Virus record (IMG/VR): IMGVR_UViG_3300049006_000008
Coordinates: 1-20,797 of that record
Length of the DNA stretch: 20,797 nt
Reading direction: 5' to 3' (one strand)
Origin: a virus
In this document: one piece after another, positions 7,452 to 18,380 of the stretch
How positions within the stretch are numbered: the stretch's first letter is position 1
How the letters are laid out: every line of letters begins with the position of its first letter
Made by a program: the position numbers and the translations under genes
Notes under the pieces: generated by a model
The model's input: the letters and a program-made list of their open reading frames with translations, nothing else
The model's database searches: none
Told to the model about the DNA's origin: nothing

Positions 7452-9068
7452 TCAGCTGGATGACGTGTAGGCGTAGCGCTTCTTCTTCGCCCGGGCCAGA
7501 CCGGCCGCGACCGAGTCGCAGGCGGCCTCGTGGGCGAGGATCCCGGACATGGCGACGTCGATCTTCTGCTTCGGCGTGGCCTTGCCGAGGATGTACCGGT
7601 CACCCGGCCTCGGCTTGCGGACGGCGTTGGCGACGTGCTGGCCGGCGGTCTCGCACCCGTCGTGGGTGAAGGTCGTGTCGGCCTTGGTGACGTCGACGAC
7701 GACCCGCTCGGCGGCGGCGTGCATCTGCACCGGCCGCCGGGTGTACCAGCGGATGATGACGGTTTCCCCGTACAGGTCGACCCAGGTGTCGCACTCGGTC
7801 TCCCAGTAGGGCGGGTCGACGTACACCCGCACGACCGTGTAGACCCGCATCAGTTCCTCGAGTGCGGCGGCGACCTCGAGCCGCGGGACCTGCCCGTCGA
7901 AGTCGGCGGGGTTCCAGATGCACGGACGCTTGTCCGGCCCGTAGACCGGGGTGAACTGGTGCCCGTCCAGGGTCTCGGCCCGGAACGCTGTCCAGTCGTC
8001 GGTGTCCGACCCGTCGATGCCCAGGACGATCGGTGTCCCGGCCGGGACCGTGCGGGTGACCGCGCGGGCATCCCAGGCCTTCCGCTCGAGCCAGCTGCCG
8101 CCCTTGGCCACGATCAGGTTGAAGAAGTACCGGTAGGCCTGTGACGGATCGGTCTGGGCGAGCTCGAGGACCTCACCGTCGATCCGGTCCAGGTCCACCC
8201 AGTGGGAGTCGCCGTACACCAGCTTGAGCGCCTTGCGGCGTTCCCGCTTGTTGGTCAGCGACGGCTTGGGCGGCTTCACGTGGTCGCGGTGAAGGTCCCG
8301 CGATTTCGACTCCGCGGTCCGCTGGGCCACCGACTGCTCCGAGTCGTCCCACCCGTTGGTCGTCTCCAGGGCCCTTCCGCCGGTGCCGGCGAGGTTCCGC
8401 CGCTGGGTCTCCGCGAGCTTCCAGCCGCCGTTGGACTCCACCCAGCAATGGGTCTCGTCCTGGACGGCGAAGGTGATGCGCTGGCCCAGGCGGGCCCGCC
8501 CGCTCGAGGTGACCGGTTCGATCAGGCCGCCGCCCGGCAGGTTGATGCGGGTCTCCCCGGTGTCGGGGATCAGAGAGGCCAGGTGCCCCTCTTCGATCAT
8601 CGGGATCAGCGCCCGGTAGACGTTGTCGGTCTGGTCCTCGGAGGTGGCGGTGACCTGGATCCACGGGGTGGCCCAGGCCCGGCCGAGCGGGTCGCCCTCC
8701 TCATACAGGTACTCCCAGCCGCACCCGCAGTCGCAGTAGGCGTAGTCCCCGGCCTGAGCCCACCCGGCGAACCGGACCGGGCCGACGGCCTCGGCGCAGA
8801 TCATCGCCGCCGAGAATGGGCCCTTGCCCCACTTCTGCGGGCGGACCAGCTGGGCCCGCCGGTTCGTCCAGGCCGACTGCCACTTGACCGCCTGGGCGTT
8901 CGGCTGGACTCGGTAGTAGTGGGCGAGGAACCGCCACATCTCATCGGTCAGCAGGTACGGGTCACCGAGGTGGTCCCCGTCGGGGATGACGCAATGCGCC
9001 TCGATCCACGACCCGATCAGCCACCCCAGGGTCGGGAACTCCCCTGGGTACTTAGGCGCCCGCCACAC
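7452..9068 (-). CDS. Terminase large subunit
   Basis: 538 residues; the GTG start overlaps the end of the small terminase gene by 17 bases. The packaging motor ATPase shows a Walker-A-like loop RPQKWGKGPFSA (residues 76-87) and a Walker B/catalytic pair DE at 204-205 in ITFAVQDETHCW. The nuclease domain has the acidic set D352 (VLGIDGSDTDDW), D418 (VYVDPPYWE) and D504 (KIDVAMSG). Between the ATPase motifs, residues 106-129 hold an added segment with CDCGCGW, a cysteine cluster that is absent from many mycobacteriophage relatives; from memory, similar inserts occur in Streptomyces phages. The enzyme cuts concatemers and pumps DNA into the prohead through the portal coded next. Confidence 0.95.
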   Translation of the reverse strand: MWRAPKYPGEFPTLGWLIGSWIEAHCVIPDGDHLGDPYLLTDEMWRFLAHYYRVQPNAQAVKWQSAWTNRRAQLVRPQKWGKGPFSAAMICAEAVGPVRFAGWAQAGDYAYCDCGCGWEYLYEEGDPLGRAWATPWIQVTATSEDQTDNVYRALIPMIEEGHLASLIPDTGETRINLPGGGLIEPVTSSGRARLGQRITFAVQDETHCWVESNGGWKLAETQRRNLAGTGGRALETTNGWDDSEQSVAQRTAESKSRDLHRDHVKPPKPSLTNKRERRKALKLVYGDSHWVDLDRIDGEVLELAQTDPSQAYRYFFNLIVAKGGSWLERKAWDARAVTRTVPAGTPIVLGIDGSDTDDWTAFRAETLDGHQFTPVYGPDKRPCIWNPADFDGQVPRLEVAAALEELMRVYTVVRVYVDPPYWETECDTWVDLYGETVIIRWYTRRPVQMHAAAERVVVDVTKADTTFTHDGCETAGQHVANAVRKPRPGDRYILGKATPKQKIDVAMSGILAHEAACDSVAAGLARAKKKRYAYTSSS

Positions 9069-9939: not shown

Positions 9940-10440
9940 TCAGAGGGATGGTTCGTCGGCCTGCGCTCGAACGACCGTGACGTCGACGTCGTCCTCGAAG
10001 AACATGACGCGCTTGATGCCGAGGTCTTCGCGCAGTTCCTTGCCAATGTTCTTGATCACATCAGGATCGAAGTCGCCGATGTTGCCGAACACCAGCACGT
10101 CATCGGGATGGATCAGGACGATGCGGCTCGCCGCTGCCTCACGGTGCAGGTCGCGCAGCCTCTGCTCTACATCGATCGCCTCGTCGAGGGACTTCAGCGC
10201 GGATGCCGAGGTCCGTTCGAGTAGCCGATCGAGCTCGGCGTCAGCGGCATCATCCGCACCACAGTGAGGGTCGAGCTCGTCTGCGGCATCGCGCAGCACC
10301 GTAGCCACCTCGGGCCTGCGGACCGTGACCACGTCAGCGTCGGCGTCATAGTCCGCTCCGACTTCGATCTCTCCTATCTGCATGCGGGCGCCCTCGCCGA
10401 GCGACACATAGATCGGGAGCTTCCCGAGATTGATGGCCAT
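9940..10440 (-). CDS. Unknown phage protein, 166 residues
   Basis: ATG with GGAAGGA six bases upstream. I do not recognise the family. The N-terminal part (MAINLGKLPIYVSLGEGARM, then QIGEIEVGADYDADADVVTV) is beta-rich. A helical middle rich in D, E and A follows (VLRDAADELDPHCGADDAADAELDRLLER). The C-terminal part (RIVLIHPDDVLVFGNIGDFD, then IKNIGKELREDLGIKRVMFFEDDVDVTVV) looks like a small alpha/beta domain with 'HPDDVLVFG' and 'GI.RV.FFEDDVDV' strands. It lies between the HNH and terminase genes, so a link to DNA packaging is possible but not shown. Confidence 0.7.
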   Translation of the reverse strand: MAINLGKLPIYVSLGEGARMQIGEIEVGADYDADADVVTVRRPEVATVLRDAADELDPHCGADDAADAELDRLLERTSASALKSLDEAIDVEQRLRDLHREAAASRIVLIHPDDVLVFGNIGDFDPDVIKNIGKELREDLGIKRVMFFEDDVDVTVVRAQADEPSL

Positions 10441-11376: not shown

Positions 11377-12993
11377 TCACCCCACTCTGGTAATGGTCGC
11401 GGTGAGGATGCCTGTGGGCGTGATCGTGGCGCTGATCTGCCCGGACGGGGTAATGGTGGCCACGACGTCGGGCAGTGGTTCGGGGGCGGTCTGGTCCGTC
11501 GTGACCGTGTCGGCTAGATGGATGGCGTCGGCGGTGGCGCGGTTCAGCAGGATCTGGCGGGTCGTCGCGTCGGCGATGCCGATGAGGTCCGAGGCTGTAC
11601 GGGCCATGAGCAGGGAACGCGTGGCCGTGTCGGCCAGGCCCAGGGAGTCGTTCGCCGCGGCGTGCTGGCCGGCCGATCCGGTGGCCTGGTCCCCGAGCGT
11701 GAGCGTGTCCGCGGCTGCTCTGCTCGTGATGGCGACGCGACTGGCCGCGTCGGTCAGGGCGAGGGCGTCTGTGGTGGTCCGTGCCTGGGTGAGGCTGCGG
11801 GTCGCGGTGTCGGTGAGCGTCAGGCCGTCGGCGGCCTGCGCCGTGCCGCCGCCTGCGCCGACTGCGGTATCTGCGAGCGCGAGGCCGTCTGTGGTGGTGC
11901 GGGCGAAGGCGGCGATGCGGGTCGCGATGTCGCCGAGGCCAAGGCCGTCGCCGGCGGTGCGGCCGGCGGTCGTGGCCCTGGTGGCTACATCCGTGAGGCT
12001 CAGGCTGTCGGAGGTCGCGGCGGCATGGCTGGAGGTGCCTGACGCGCTGTCGGCCAGGCTGAGCGCGTCGGCGGTCGTGCGGGCCGCAGTGAGGCCGGCG
12101 ACCGCCGTATCGGTGAGGGTCAGGGTGTCCGAGACCGCCCGGGCCGCGACCAGGGCGCTGGTGGCGACGTCGGTCAGGGTGAGGGTGTCGGCCGCGGTGC
12201 GGGATTGGCCGCTGCTGGAGACGCTGCCGGCGGCGGTGTCGGTGAGCGTCAGGGAGTCCGAGACGGCGCTGACTAGGGCTGCGGTGCGCGCCACTGTGTC
12301 GGTGAGGGTGATGGTGTCGGTAGCCGTGCGGGACGGGTTGGGTGCCGCTGGCAGGGCGACCGATGTGAACACCAGGTCGTCCATGCGCAGCGAGGTGTTC
12401 GCGACGCTGGTGCTGTTGCCCCACTGGCATTCGTCGACGTTCGCGGTGCCCCAGTTGGCGCTGTTCATGGTCAGCGTCTCGTCCGGGGTGTCGCTGCTGG
12501 GCGTCCGGTAGATGTAGACGATCCCGGTGGCCGAGGCTCCGACGGTGAAGTCGAACGCGATGCGCCAGGTGTCGGAGGTGGTCATGCCGGTGCTGGAGGA
12601 CTGCACCGTGGTGTTGGAGGTGTTGGATACGCGGATGACGCCGGTGCTGGCGATGACGCTGATCCGGGCGACCTGGACGCCGCCGGCGCGGAGGCGCAGC
12701 AGGGTGGTGCTGACGGCGACCGAGCCGGGTTTGACGGTGAACCGCCCGTAGACGCGGGCGAGGGCGGTGCCGATCGCGGTGCTGGTCCAGCTCAGGCTGC
12801 TGGTGACTCCGGTGGCACCGCTGGTGAGGAGGAACGACAGGGATCCGCGCAGGGCTGTGCTGTCGTAGGTGACGGCCGCCCCTGCGCCGATGCTGACGCT
12901 GTTGAAGGCGTCCCCGCCGGTCGCGCTGTTGCCCGTGGTGACGGTCGTCCCTGAGGACTGGCCGCTCTCGGCGGTGTGCGCCAGGGTCACCAT
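11377..12993 (-). CDS. Fibre protein: beta-sandwich head plus 14 repeats of about 20 residues
   Basis: 538 residues, ATG with GGGAGG eight bases upstream. Residues 1-218 look like a concanavalin/LamG-type beta sandwich (FTVKPGSVAVSTTLLRLRAG, DTWRIAFDFTVGASATGIVY, then SLRMDDLVFTSVAL at its end), a fold used for sugar binding. Residues 221-497 are fourteen repeats with consensus R-T-x-x-D-x-L-x-L-x-D-x-A-x-R; the L-x-L-x-D core recurs every 20 residues exactly from residue 271 to 491. A short C-terminal beta tail (ITPSGQISATITPTGILTAT) follows. The composition is rich in A, T, S, D and L and has only one cysteine. It is most likely a tail or head fibre that touches the host. Its place upstream of the terminase genes, apart from tail genes, is less usual. 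Confidence 0.75.
   Translation of the reverse strand: MVTLAHTAESGQSSGTTVTTGNSATGGDAFNSVSIGAGAAVTYDSTALRGSLSFLLTSGATGVTSSLSWTSTAIGTALARVYGRFTVKPGSVAVSTTLLRLRAGGVQVARISVIASTGVIRVSNTSNTTVQSSSTGMTTSDTWRIAFDFTVGASATGIVYIYRTPSSDTPDETLTMNSANWGTANVDECQWGNSTSVANTSLRMDDLVFTSVALPAAPNPSRTATDTITLTDTVARTAALVSAVSDSLTLTDTAAGSVSSSGQSRTAADTLTLTDVATSALVAARAVSDTLTLTDTAVAGLTAARTTADALSLADSASGTSSHAAATSDSLSLTDVATRATTAGRTAGDGLGLGDIATRIAAFARTTTDGLALADTAVGAGGGTAQAADGLTLTDTATRSLTQARTTTDALALTDAASRVAITSRAAADTLTLGDQATGSAGQHAAANDSLGLADTATRSLLMARTASDLIGIADATTRQILLNRATADAIHLADTVTTDQTAPEPLPDVVATITPSGQISATITPTGILTATITRVG
11503..12333 (-). repeat. Coding tandem repeat of the fibre shaft, 60-bp period
   Basis: Fourteen units coding for the (R/S)(T/A)xxDxLxLxDxAxR motif. 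The last twelve L-x-L-x-D cores are exactly 60 bp apart; the first two gaps are 20 and 23 codons. The units differ at many bases but keep their length, so the protein, not the DNA, seems to be under selection for period. Confidence 0.9.
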
Positions 12994-16957: not shown

Positions 16958-16992
16958 CGGCGGGTGTCCTTGTCTGCTGAGTGGGTGGTCAT
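16954..16992 (-). CDS. Possible 12-codon coupling ORF
   Basis: ATG (16992) overlaps the initiator stop as ATGA; the product is MTTHSADKDTRR and its TGA overlaps the next GTG as GTGA. The mini-ORF exactly bridges the 31-base gap, so ribosomes ending the initiator gene could pass on to the next gene by re-initiation. It may be chance. Confidence 0.35.
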   Translation of the reverse strand: MTTHSADKDTRR

Positions 16993-17837
16993 GCCGGGAT
17001 CCGGGCGGCGAGCGCGGCGGCGTGGATGATGCGTTCTTCGTGGCGGGCGTCGGGGAGTTCGGCGGTGGCGCGGGCGAGGAGGAAGGTGCCTCCGTCGGGG
17101 AGGTTCAGGAGCGTTCCCTGAGCAGCCAAATAATGATCTTGGTCGATTTCCGGCAAGGGCGGATCGTCGCCGGACCCCCCTTCCAGCTCAGCCAGTGGAT
17201 ACCTCAAGTTGTCGTCGCTTTTAGAGGGAGCCTTTGACTGAGAGGGACTAGAGGGAACAGAGGGACTTAGGGGGGGAACTGGTTCCCCCCAAGCGGGAAC
17301 TGGTTCCCCCCTCTGGGGAACTGGTTCCCCCCTCTGGGGCGAGAGGGGGGAACTGAATCTCCCCTCTGCGACCTGGAGAGGGCTGTGGATAACTGGGTTG
17401 TCCACAGGGGCGAGGGGCCAAGAGGGGGGAACCAATTCCCCCCTCTTGGCCTCGGAGGAGGGAACGTATTCCCCCCTCTCGGGGATGCGGACGGACGCGG
17501 GGAGGACGGGAAGCCGGAACCCCATGGAGCGGCCGTCGCAGGCGTAGATGGGGCGGCCTGCGGCATCGGTGCCGGTCTGTACCCGGACCTCGAGGCCGCG
17601 CTTGGCGAGCCGCTGGAACGCCTTCTTGAGGGCATCTGTCTCGATCTTCAGGCCGCTGCCCCGGGAGATCCGTTCGATCAGGGATTTGTCGTCGGTGCGG
17701 TGCCGGAGCATGGTCCTGCCGTGATCCTCCGCACGCTCGGCGATCGTGTACAGAATGGCGATCTCGCCCGGTGTCAGACCGGCGGCGATCGGGCTCTGCA
17801 GCCATTCGGCGAGCTCGCCGATGAGCCTGGCGCTCAT
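16989..17837 (-). CDS. Putative replication initiator with winged-helix N-terminus and internal origin
   Basis: 282 residues, ATG with GGGAGG shortly upstream. Residues 1-110 (ELAEWLQSPIAAGLTPGEIA, ILYTIAERAED, then LIERISRGSGLKIETDALKK, AFQRLAKRGLEVRVQTG, IYACDGRSMGFRLP) look like a winged-helix DNA-binding domain of the kind used by phage and plasmid initiators. Residues 119-205 are low-complexity, with RGEYVP, RGELVPP and three copies of RGEPVP, and they exist because the DNA carries dyad repeats and DnaA boxes. Residues 210-282 form an acidic helical C-terminal part that could bind a host helicase or loader. This design (N-domain, repeats in the gene middle, C-domain) parallels lambda O. 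That it is the initiator is inference; a regulator with its own operators inside the gene is the main alternative. Confidence 0.7.
   Translation of the reverse strand: MSARLIGELAEWLQSPIAAGLTPGEIAILYTIAERAEDHGRTMLRHRTDDKSLIERISRGSGLKIETDALKKAFQRLAKRGLEVRVQTGTDAAGRPIYACDGRSMGFRLPVLPASVRIPERGEYVPSSEAKRGELVPPSWPLAPVDNPVIHSPLQVAEGRFSSPLSPQRGEPVPQRGEPVPAWGEPVPPLSPSVPSSPSQSKAPSKSDDNLRYPLAELEGGSGDDPPLPEIDQDHYLAAQGTLLNLPDGGTFLLARATAELPDARHEERIIHAAALAARIPA
17271..17330. repeat. Three 21-bp-phased dyads, core GGGAAC-TG-GTTCCC
   Basis: GGGGGGAACTGGTTCCCCCC (17271-17290), then GGGAAC-TG-GTTCCC (17295-17308) and GGGGAAC-TG-GTTCCCC (17315-17330). The period is 21 bp or seven codons, coding for RGEPVPx on the minus strand. 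A degenerate fourth copy lies at 17345-17364. Confidence 0.9.
17384..17406. promoter_or_regulatory. Pair of facing DnaA boxes
   Basis: TGTGGATAA (17384-17392; reverse complement TTATCCACA, the perfect E. coli-type box) and TTGTCCACA (17398-17406, the form preferred in Streptomyces), five bases apart and inverted. They lie between the two halves of the dyad array. Confidence 0.75.
17416..17473. repeat. 36-bp perfect inverted repeat and sixth dyad
   Basis: GGCCAAGAGGGGGGAA (17416-17431) and its exact reverse complement (17436-17451) flank CCAA: 16-bp arms around the same GGGAA..TTCCC core. A weaker copy GGGAA-CGTA-TTCCC follows at 17460-17473, 33 bp further. Confidence 0.9.
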
Positions 17838-17899: not shown

Positions 17900-17919
17900 G
17901 TTCAGTTCTGTTCAGAAGC
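17900..17919. repeat. Two GTTCAG decamers upstream of the initiator gene
   Basis: GTTCAGTTCT GTTCAGAAGC: two copies of the 10-bp unit found seven times at 18311-18380, again directly preceded by CTGGC on the plus strand. They lie 63 bp before the initiator start, as an operator would. The surrounding 103-base gap (17838-17940) also has a GCCCCCT/AGGGGGC stem (17867-17894). Confidence 0.75.
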
Positions 17920-17944
17920 CCAGGTCGGGCAGGGAGTGGTTCAT
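17912..17944 (-). CDS. Possible 10-codon mini-ORF
   Basis: ATG in ATGA overlap with the zinc-type gene upstream; the product is MNHSLPDLGF. Its stop lies inside the decamer pair. Only the overlap supports it, so it may be chance. Confidence 0.2.
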   Translation of the reverse strand: MNHSLPDLGF

Positions 17945-18261
17945 GGCGGCCGCCGGCGGGTGCGGGCGGCCGCCAGGTCGACGACGCCGTCAGGGCGCGG
18001 CCTGGTGGCAGCGATGGGCAAGGCCAGCTGCCGGGAACGCATCGGGCAGGTGGCGAAGTGCGGCATGTACACCTCCTCCCAGGGCCGCTGGGGGACGCCG
18101 TCGGCGCGCAGGCTCCGGGCATGCCAAACCTGACGGTCGTCCTGGTAGGCCAGGACGTTCCCGTCAGGGTCCGGTGCGGCGTCGAGCGGTTGCCGTCGCC
18201 CTCTGGCTGTGAGGGCCAGGATCAGAGGCCGACGGCACAGGCGGCACGTCGCGTGGGCCAC
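17941..18261 (-). CDS. Small zinc-knuckle-type protein, 106 residues
   Basis: GTG start with AAGGGG five bases upstream. The N-terminus has ATCRLCRRPLILALTARGRR (CxxC), and FATCPMRSRQ with another cysteine follows near residue 72, so a small metal site is possible. The middle (DAAPDPDGNVLAYQDDRQVW) resembles short zinc-ribbon proteins common in Streptomyces phages and plasmids ('plDa.p..GnV....'). The C-terminus is basic. Decamer repeat arrays lie on both sides of the gene. Role unknown; DNA or RNA binding is possible. Confidence 0.68.
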   Translation of the reverse strand: MAHATCRLCRRPLILALTARGRRQPLDAAPDPDGNVLAYQDDRQVWHARSLRADGVPQRPWEEVYMPHFATCPMRSRQLALPIAATRPRPDGVVDLAAARTRRRPP

Positions 18262-18310: not shown

Positions 18311-18380
18311 GTTCAGCTACGTTCAGCTGTGTTCTGTTCTGTTCAGCTATGTCGAGTTCTGTTCAGCTGTGTTCAGCTAT
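18311..18380. repeat. Seven tandem decamers, consensus GTTCAGCTRT
   Basis: Exactly 10-bp units starting at 18311, 18321, 18331, 18341, 18351, 18361 and 18371: GTTCAGCTAC, GTTCAGCTGT, GTTCTGTTCT, GTTCAGCTAT, GTCGAGTTCT, GTTCAGCTGT, GTTCAGCTAT. The array covers the end of the 109-residue gene and the 111-base gap before the 106-residue gene. One unit per helical turn places all sites on the same DNA face. Confidence 0.92.

Follow-up and report, generated by a model that had tools for sequence, protein, structure and literature searches.

A putative O-like initiator gene that probably carries the replication origin of its phage

Results

The gene at 16989–17837 of a 20,797-bp viral contig (the window, i.e., the whole stretch of DNA analysed) is very probably that of an O-like replication initiator, and its middle part would serve as the replication origin of the phage. 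Computation showed the sequence elements of this candidate origin, their conservation at the DNA level, a family of related loci, a link of the family to O-like profiles, and covariation between a predicted recognition helix and the dyads. An intragenic origin of this kind appears to occur in phage of high-GC, actinobacterial hosts.

The initiator gene and its product

The window is a linear IMG/VR contig that may be a fragment. It contains a portal gene and, at 7452–9068 on the minus strand, a probable large terminase gene (weak Pfam match). The original prediction described a winged-helix-type gene of 282 residues; the length was confirmed, and the winged helix is predicted with modest confidence, as the AlphaFold2 model of the N-terminal domain has the helix and strand order of a winged helix at a pLDDT of 62. 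Structures matching this model were generic winged helices with modest Z scores (up to 8.2), and PDB profile and Foldseek searches also returned generic winged helices only, Foldseek without a match below an E value of 0.001. The window protein itself had no Pfam or PHROG match, and library and collection searches made with it were empty. By analogy, the C-terminal segment is proposed to be a helicase or replisome contact. The coordinates of all features are given in Table 1.

Two observations concern other parts of the window. The predicted protein encoded at 11377–12993 contains many degenerate ADTLTLTDTA-like repeats and is of tail type judging by its position. About seven GTTCAG direct repeats in a 10-bp phase are found at 18311–18380, with a second cluster of two at 17901–17915; the clusters lie in intergenic DNA upstream of the minus-strand genes 17941–18261 and 16989–17837 and resemble an operator array.

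Table 1. Features of the initiator gene and the candidate origin (window coordinates; a dot marks features given without a strand)
Feature	Position	Strand	Basis or remark
Initiator gene, 282 aa, origin host	16989..17837	-	ORF; family members match O-like/replication initiation PHROGs
N-terminal DNA-binding domain, predicted winged-helix type, residues 1-117	17487..17837	-	AlphaFold2 model; pN/pS 0.13 vs L002
Predicted recognition helix, residues 67-79	17601..17639	-	H67-79 in model; sequence covaries with dyads
Dyad 1 (GGAGGGAACGTATTCCCCCC)	17457..17476	.	Kept in L002
Dyad 2 (GGGGGGAACCAATTCCCCCC)	17424..17443	.	Core of inverted repeat 17416-17451; core kept in L002
DnaA box TTGTCCACA	17398..17406	+	Exact; within 59-bp block identical in L002
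DnaA box TTATCCACA, inverted relative to the other	17384..17392	-	Exact; within the same L002-identical block
Dyad 3, degenerate (GGGGGGAACTGAATCTCCCC)	17345..17364	.	Reading frame differs from other dyads; strict form in L002
Dyad 4	17313..17332	.	21 bp to dyad 5
Dyad 5	17292..17311	.	21 bp to dyads 4 and 6
Dyad 6	17271..17290	.	Last dyad on coding strand; reference point for second element
Pyrimidine direct repeats, TCCCTCT x4 on coding strand, directly after dyad 6	17223..17265	-	Same register in most relatives
Less GC-rich stretch, candidate unwinding region	17193..17252	.	50% GC in 69% GC window; adjoins array
C-terminal segment, residues 207-282	16989..17217	-	pN/pS 0.35 (residues 208-282 vs L002)

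The dyad array

The sequence GGGAA-N4-TTCCC is found exactly five times in the window (17274, 17295, 17316, 17427, and 17460), every time inside the initiator gene, while the expectation is 0.35 even with one mismatch allowed and the maximum in 100 shuffles was three. All six predicted GGGAAC-type dyads are found where they had been placed, five in strict and one in degenerate form. Three of them are indeed phased at exactly 21 bp and the remaining spacings are about 32, 79, and 33 bp. The predicted perfect inverted repeat of 36 bp is also there, at 17416–17451, with two complementary arms of 16 nt around a 4-nt spacer; its outer arms are however lost in the nearest relative (L002, see below), so that the conserved unit is the core of about 20 bp. 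Along the coding strand the order is dyads 1 and 2, the two inverted DnaA boxes, dyads 3–6, the four TCCCTCT repeats, and the less GC-rich stretch. A GC-skew analysis, suggested as a check on the origin, revealed no switch in polarity at 17.3 kb, which speaks neither for nor against an origin at this position.

The closest relative of the gene, L002, is carried on a 40-kb IMG/VR contig, classed as linear and possibly a fragment, and encodes a protein that is 93% identical. It keeps all six dyads, with spacings of 33, 79, 32, 21, and 21 bp, as well as both DnaA boxes; at dyad 3, degenerate in the window, L002 has a strict GGGAA-N4-TTCCC. A loss of dyads and boxes in a relative with a similar protein, named beforehand as evidence against the prediction, was hence not observed. 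A block of 59 bp (17375–17433), which holds both DnaA boxes, is identical in the two. Nucleotide identity is even along the gene (93–95%), while pN/pS is 0.13 for the DNA-binding domain, 1.21 for residues 118–207, a value based on small counts (4 synonymous and 14 non-synonymous differences), and 0.35 for the C-terminal part. The array has a lower pS than the DNA-binding domain (0.058 vs. 0.154). The dyads are thus kept while the encoded amino acids change, in agreement with the proposal that the DNA and not the RGEPVP peptide is under selection.

A family of loci with diversified dyads

Relatives of the N-terminal domain turned up in a profile search, both across actinobacterial genomes and in pPaSha2, a circular Pseudonocardia phage/plasmid record of 42 kb with terminase, portal, capsid, and integrase genes. 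In pPaSha2 the order is domain, dyad, DnaA boxes, dyads, i.e., the same as in the window. Its initiator gene (L032 2998–3540; L093, CP052773.1 16519–17061) falls where the PLSDB table lists no gene. The small viral contigs L005 and L030 encode the same domain followed by near-identical dyads in another reading frame (GTSSP and not RGEPVP), directly before a DnaB gene.

As the 4-nt centre of the dyads is not palindromic and the GC content is high, a count of whole palindromes (≥8/10 pairs) gave background and was replaced by a model-free tally of the commonest spaced dyad. By this count a dyad family beyond that in codon shuffles is present just after the N-terminal domain in 20 of the 29 loci with this domain, and three or more dyad copies were found in 4 of 743 control tiles. 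The other nine loci are without an array by this strict statistic, and several of the nine are weak matches. The dyad arms vary by locus (GGGAA, GGGAC, GCGGA, GTCCG, GTCAC, TCCCC, and others). Thirteen of the 20 array loci have their dyad copies in two or more reading frames. In the relative G001 all 16 dyad matches fall inside 210 bp. At L080 (5865–6500) a short gene for the N-terminal domain ends just ahead of the array, with a DnaA box between the stop codon and the array, which means that the array is not needed as coding sequence. This array consists of GGCCTGGAGGCC in a 33-bp phase, and the locus could be a split form of the same architecture or the result of a frameshift.

Equal-score initiator copies, with dyads in all three reading frames, are located near both ends of a 9.8-Mb contig (L053, G476:C1:14168-14497, and G476:C1:9798319-9798648), which suggests that they are terminal repeats carrying the replication module; a genus-level search around G476 returned its own two copies only. 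When viral contigs were searched with the DNA pattern of a single dyad, the hits were mostly single and probably chance matches, and true arrays were found only in L005 and in the relative's own contig. Another contig, L027, was rejected as a relative: GGGAACTGGTTCCC repeats are present, and a homologous gene was not seen in the part read. These repeats are near the end of an unrelated-looking viral contig (130–370), and their half-sites resemble the GTGGGAAC iterons of pWTY27.

Twenty family domains matched only PHROGs named replication initiation, O-like or primosomal. The full-length L041 protein matched phrog_391 ("replication initiation O-like") with an E value of 5.7e-25, compared to 2.7e-39 for lambda O itself, and the family matched the O protein of an Edwardsiella phage by tblastn. 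HTH_36 was a Pfam match of 10 of the 20 family members, and the window protein did not match it at the limit used. Because the window protein matches no library family, its putative O-like homology is transitive, i.e., it runs through the family.

Covariation of the predicted recognition helix with the iterons

For 18 loci, an automatically derived iteron consensus was set against the N-terminal domain in sliding windows. The correlation between iteron and domain peaks at residues 63–79, the predicted recognition helix (r = 0.38), with a family-wise P of 0.002 for the maximum over all windows. The partial correlation between helix and iteron, controlling for the other parts of the domain, is 0.33 (P = 0.0003); with the helix given, these other parts contribute nothing further (P = 0.40). 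All of these P values are inexact as the loci are related. In a hand-curated set of 16 loci the helix/iteron correlation was 0.54. We infer that the N-terminal domain binds its own dyads, and short of a gel shift this covariation is the best available support for such binding.

DnaA boxes and the supply of helicase

Both inverted DnaA boxes of the original prediction are exact and they are the sole TTRTCCACA sites in the window (0.02 expected; two sites in 0 of 100 shuffles). DnaA boxes are also present in pPaSha2, L080, and L076. A DnaB or DnaC-like gene was found in the flank of 13 of the 29 family loci, in a search that spanned mostly about 5 kb of flank. DnaA boxes within the initiator gene were found in none of these 13 loci compared to 6 of the 16 loci without such a neighbour (Fisher P = 0.02, or 0.047 with near-duplicates merged; the comparison was made post hoc and the P values are optimistic). 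DnaB_C and IstB/DnaC profiles found no match in the window, the L002 contig or pPaSha2, the first two of which may be fragments. We propose that, in elements without a DnaB or DnaC gene, host DnaA helps with the recruitment of the host helicase.

The pyrimidine repeats and the less GC-rich stretch

The four predicted AGAGGGA direct repeats were confirmed at 17223, 17241, 17250, and 17259, and one further copy is present in the window, at 9942. They represent, in this phage, a conserved element of pyrimidine repeats located at a fixed distance from the last dyad. When the loci are aligned on the last dyad, most have pyrimidine repeats (CTCCTCA, CCCCTCA, TCCCTCT) that are 9–12 bp apart and begin 20–22 bp from the start of that dyad. 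The pyrimidine fraction of the 36 nt after the last dyad is on average 0.71 vs. 0.51 in control stretches; the motif was spotted first and tested later, and P values for it are optimistic. The less GC-rich stretch is among the five windows of 60 bp with the lowest GC content, yet it is not the lowest. By analogy with the tract of lambda and with DnaA-trios (PMC10797057), the pyrimidine repeats may be a site of strand opening or single-strand capture. In L056, L072, L076, L079, and L082 CTCTCTC-type runs that follow the pyrimidine repeats recur as GAGAGAG about 60–80 bp further on, possibly as a long-range inverted pair.

Discussion

We favour the following sequence of events. The winged-helix N-terminal domain would bind its own palindromic iterons, i.e., the six GGGAAC/GTTCCC dyads of about 20 bp, and the DNA that bears the iterons would encode nothing but a flexible linker. 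The bound array would then present the four TCCCTCT repeats and the neighbouring less GC-rich DNA for strand opening, while host DnaA at the two inverted boxes between the dyads would probably assist in opening the origin or recruiting the host helicase. A role for DnaA is proposed because no phage gene of the DnaB or DnaC type was found.

Other readings of the array have to be considered. The dyads could be a regulatory operator or a partition site, bound by the same protein for autoregulation, incompatibility or segregation, with replication starting elsewhere. Winged-helix proteins bound to palindromes are a typical feature of operators as well, and the same covariation between helix and dyads would arise. 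The array is however located deep in coding sequence, outside any promoter region, it is found once per genome, and it is followed by a conserved repeat tract at a fixed register; in addition the family adjoins DnaB/DnaC genes and matches replication-initiation profiles only. We consider this reading improbable. A little less improbable, if still unlikely, is that the origin is real but that host DnaA at the two boxes is the main driver and the phage protein an accessory, which is a variant of our preferred explanation and not exclusive with it. The exact boxes within a block identical in L002, the failure to find a phage helicase or loader in the window, the L002 contig or pPaSha2, and the confinement of boxes to loci without a DnaB/DnaC neighbour are all in its favour. 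On the other hand most arrays of the family do not contain any DnaA box, and two boxes are few beside chromosomal origins.

The dyads could also act as RNA, in the form of mRNA hairpins that attenuate or regulate translation or decay. Judging by sequence each dyad could form a hairpin, but all copies at a locus have one arm sequence in common, which RNA pairing does not need, and this arm sequence follows the recognition helix of the protein. The DnaA boxes within the array and the position of the L080 array after a stop codon also argue against RNA, and we regard this reading as very improbable. Hardly credible is selection at the protein level for the low-complexity RGEPVP peptide, with the DNA repeats as a by-product of duplication. 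The three copies at 21 bp do correspond to seven-codon repeats encoding RGEPVP; however, L005/L030 have the same dyads in other frames and the frame also varies within single genes, the array block shows no depletion of non-synonymous change while the dyads are kept, and at L080 the array is not part of the translated gene. An O-like initiator acting on an origin inside its own gene is the reading that we prefer.

Lambda O is an established case of an origin situated within the gene of its initiator (PMC7466680), and the logic of lambda O and its origin had been predicted for the window. The intragenic array and the O-like family support this. The prediction is refined in that the AGAGGGA repeats belong to a conserved second element and in that, unlike in lambda, there are DnaA boxes while a helicase or loader gene was not found. 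The likeness to lambda O (PMC7466680; J02459) lies in an N-terminal DNA-binding part, palindromic iterons of about 18–20 bp in the middle of the gene, a tract of asymmetric strand composition that directly follows the last iteron, and O-like PHROG profiles common to the family members. The iterons of the window differ in being GC-rich and of another sequence, two DnaA boxes are placed inside the array, and the tract is pyrimidine-rich where that of lambda is A/purine-rich on the coding strand. A P-like or DnaB gene was not found in the window phage, and since no adjoining helicase or loader gene was found either we do not classify the locus as an O/P module.

In the staphylococcal plasmid pSK41, Rep (RepA_N) also has its origin within rep, and the part of the protein that the origin encodes is a dispensable linker (PMC5703833). 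There too a winged-helix N-terminal domain binds boxes that are central in its own gene, while the corresponding binding is putative here. The RepA_N domain (PF06970) is absent from the Pfam matches of 20 family members, no DnaA boxes are known in the staphylococcal plasmids, and the host phylum and base composition are different. The chimeric Rep of pPR9 has an N-terminal domain of phage type (PF13730, HTH_36), the Pfam family matched by half of the family domains searched (10/20), and its rep region replicates autonomously (PMC5703833); pPR9 is however a plasmid of Firmicutes and the window protein had no HTH_36 match at the limit used. The Streptomyces plasmid pWTY27 (PMC3583192) is, like the present elements, a high-GC actinobacterial replicon and has GTGGGAAC/TTCCCAC repeats bound by the initiator RepA, but its iteron is non-coding and located beside repA, and RepA has 522 aa and works with primase/polymerase. 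A resemblance to oriC with its DnaA box and DnaA-trio (PMC10797057) is seen in the double-stranded initiator sites that are closely followed by short repeats of another sequence; here the double-stranded sites are phage-specific dyads and the single-strand binding of the pyrimidine repeats is putative. The authors of a study on mycobacteriophage RepA considered the same intragenic position for their origin (PMC7157519).

Given the precedents of lambda O and pSK41 the principle of an intragenic origin is known, and the present case is a variant of it with GC-rich diversifying palindromes, a pyrimidine element at a fixed register, and embedded DnaA boxes. No description of the present initiator family was found in the literature (open-licence papers). 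As a tentative generalization, which we hold to be possible rather than probable, the origin design may be bipartite: fast-diversifying palindromes specific for the initiator would abut conserved pyrimidine repeats in fixed register, captured single-stranded by the initiator or a host factor in analogy to the DnaA box and DnaA-trio, and helicase recruitment would be modular, i.e., provided by a neighbouring DnaB/DnaC gene or else by embedded DnaA boxes.

A hypothetical protein that matched nothing in the databases can now be tested as a replication initiator, and the putative origin is located to within about 250 bp. The dyads are a clean target for synonymous recoding, and compact origin cassettes of this type may be of use for actinobacterial vectors. 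The family amounts to a natural library in which one DNA-binding fold is combined with many iterons, and since helix and iteron vary together the rules of O-like recognition could be read from sequence. It also hints at how phages without a helicase loader of their own may use host DnaA.
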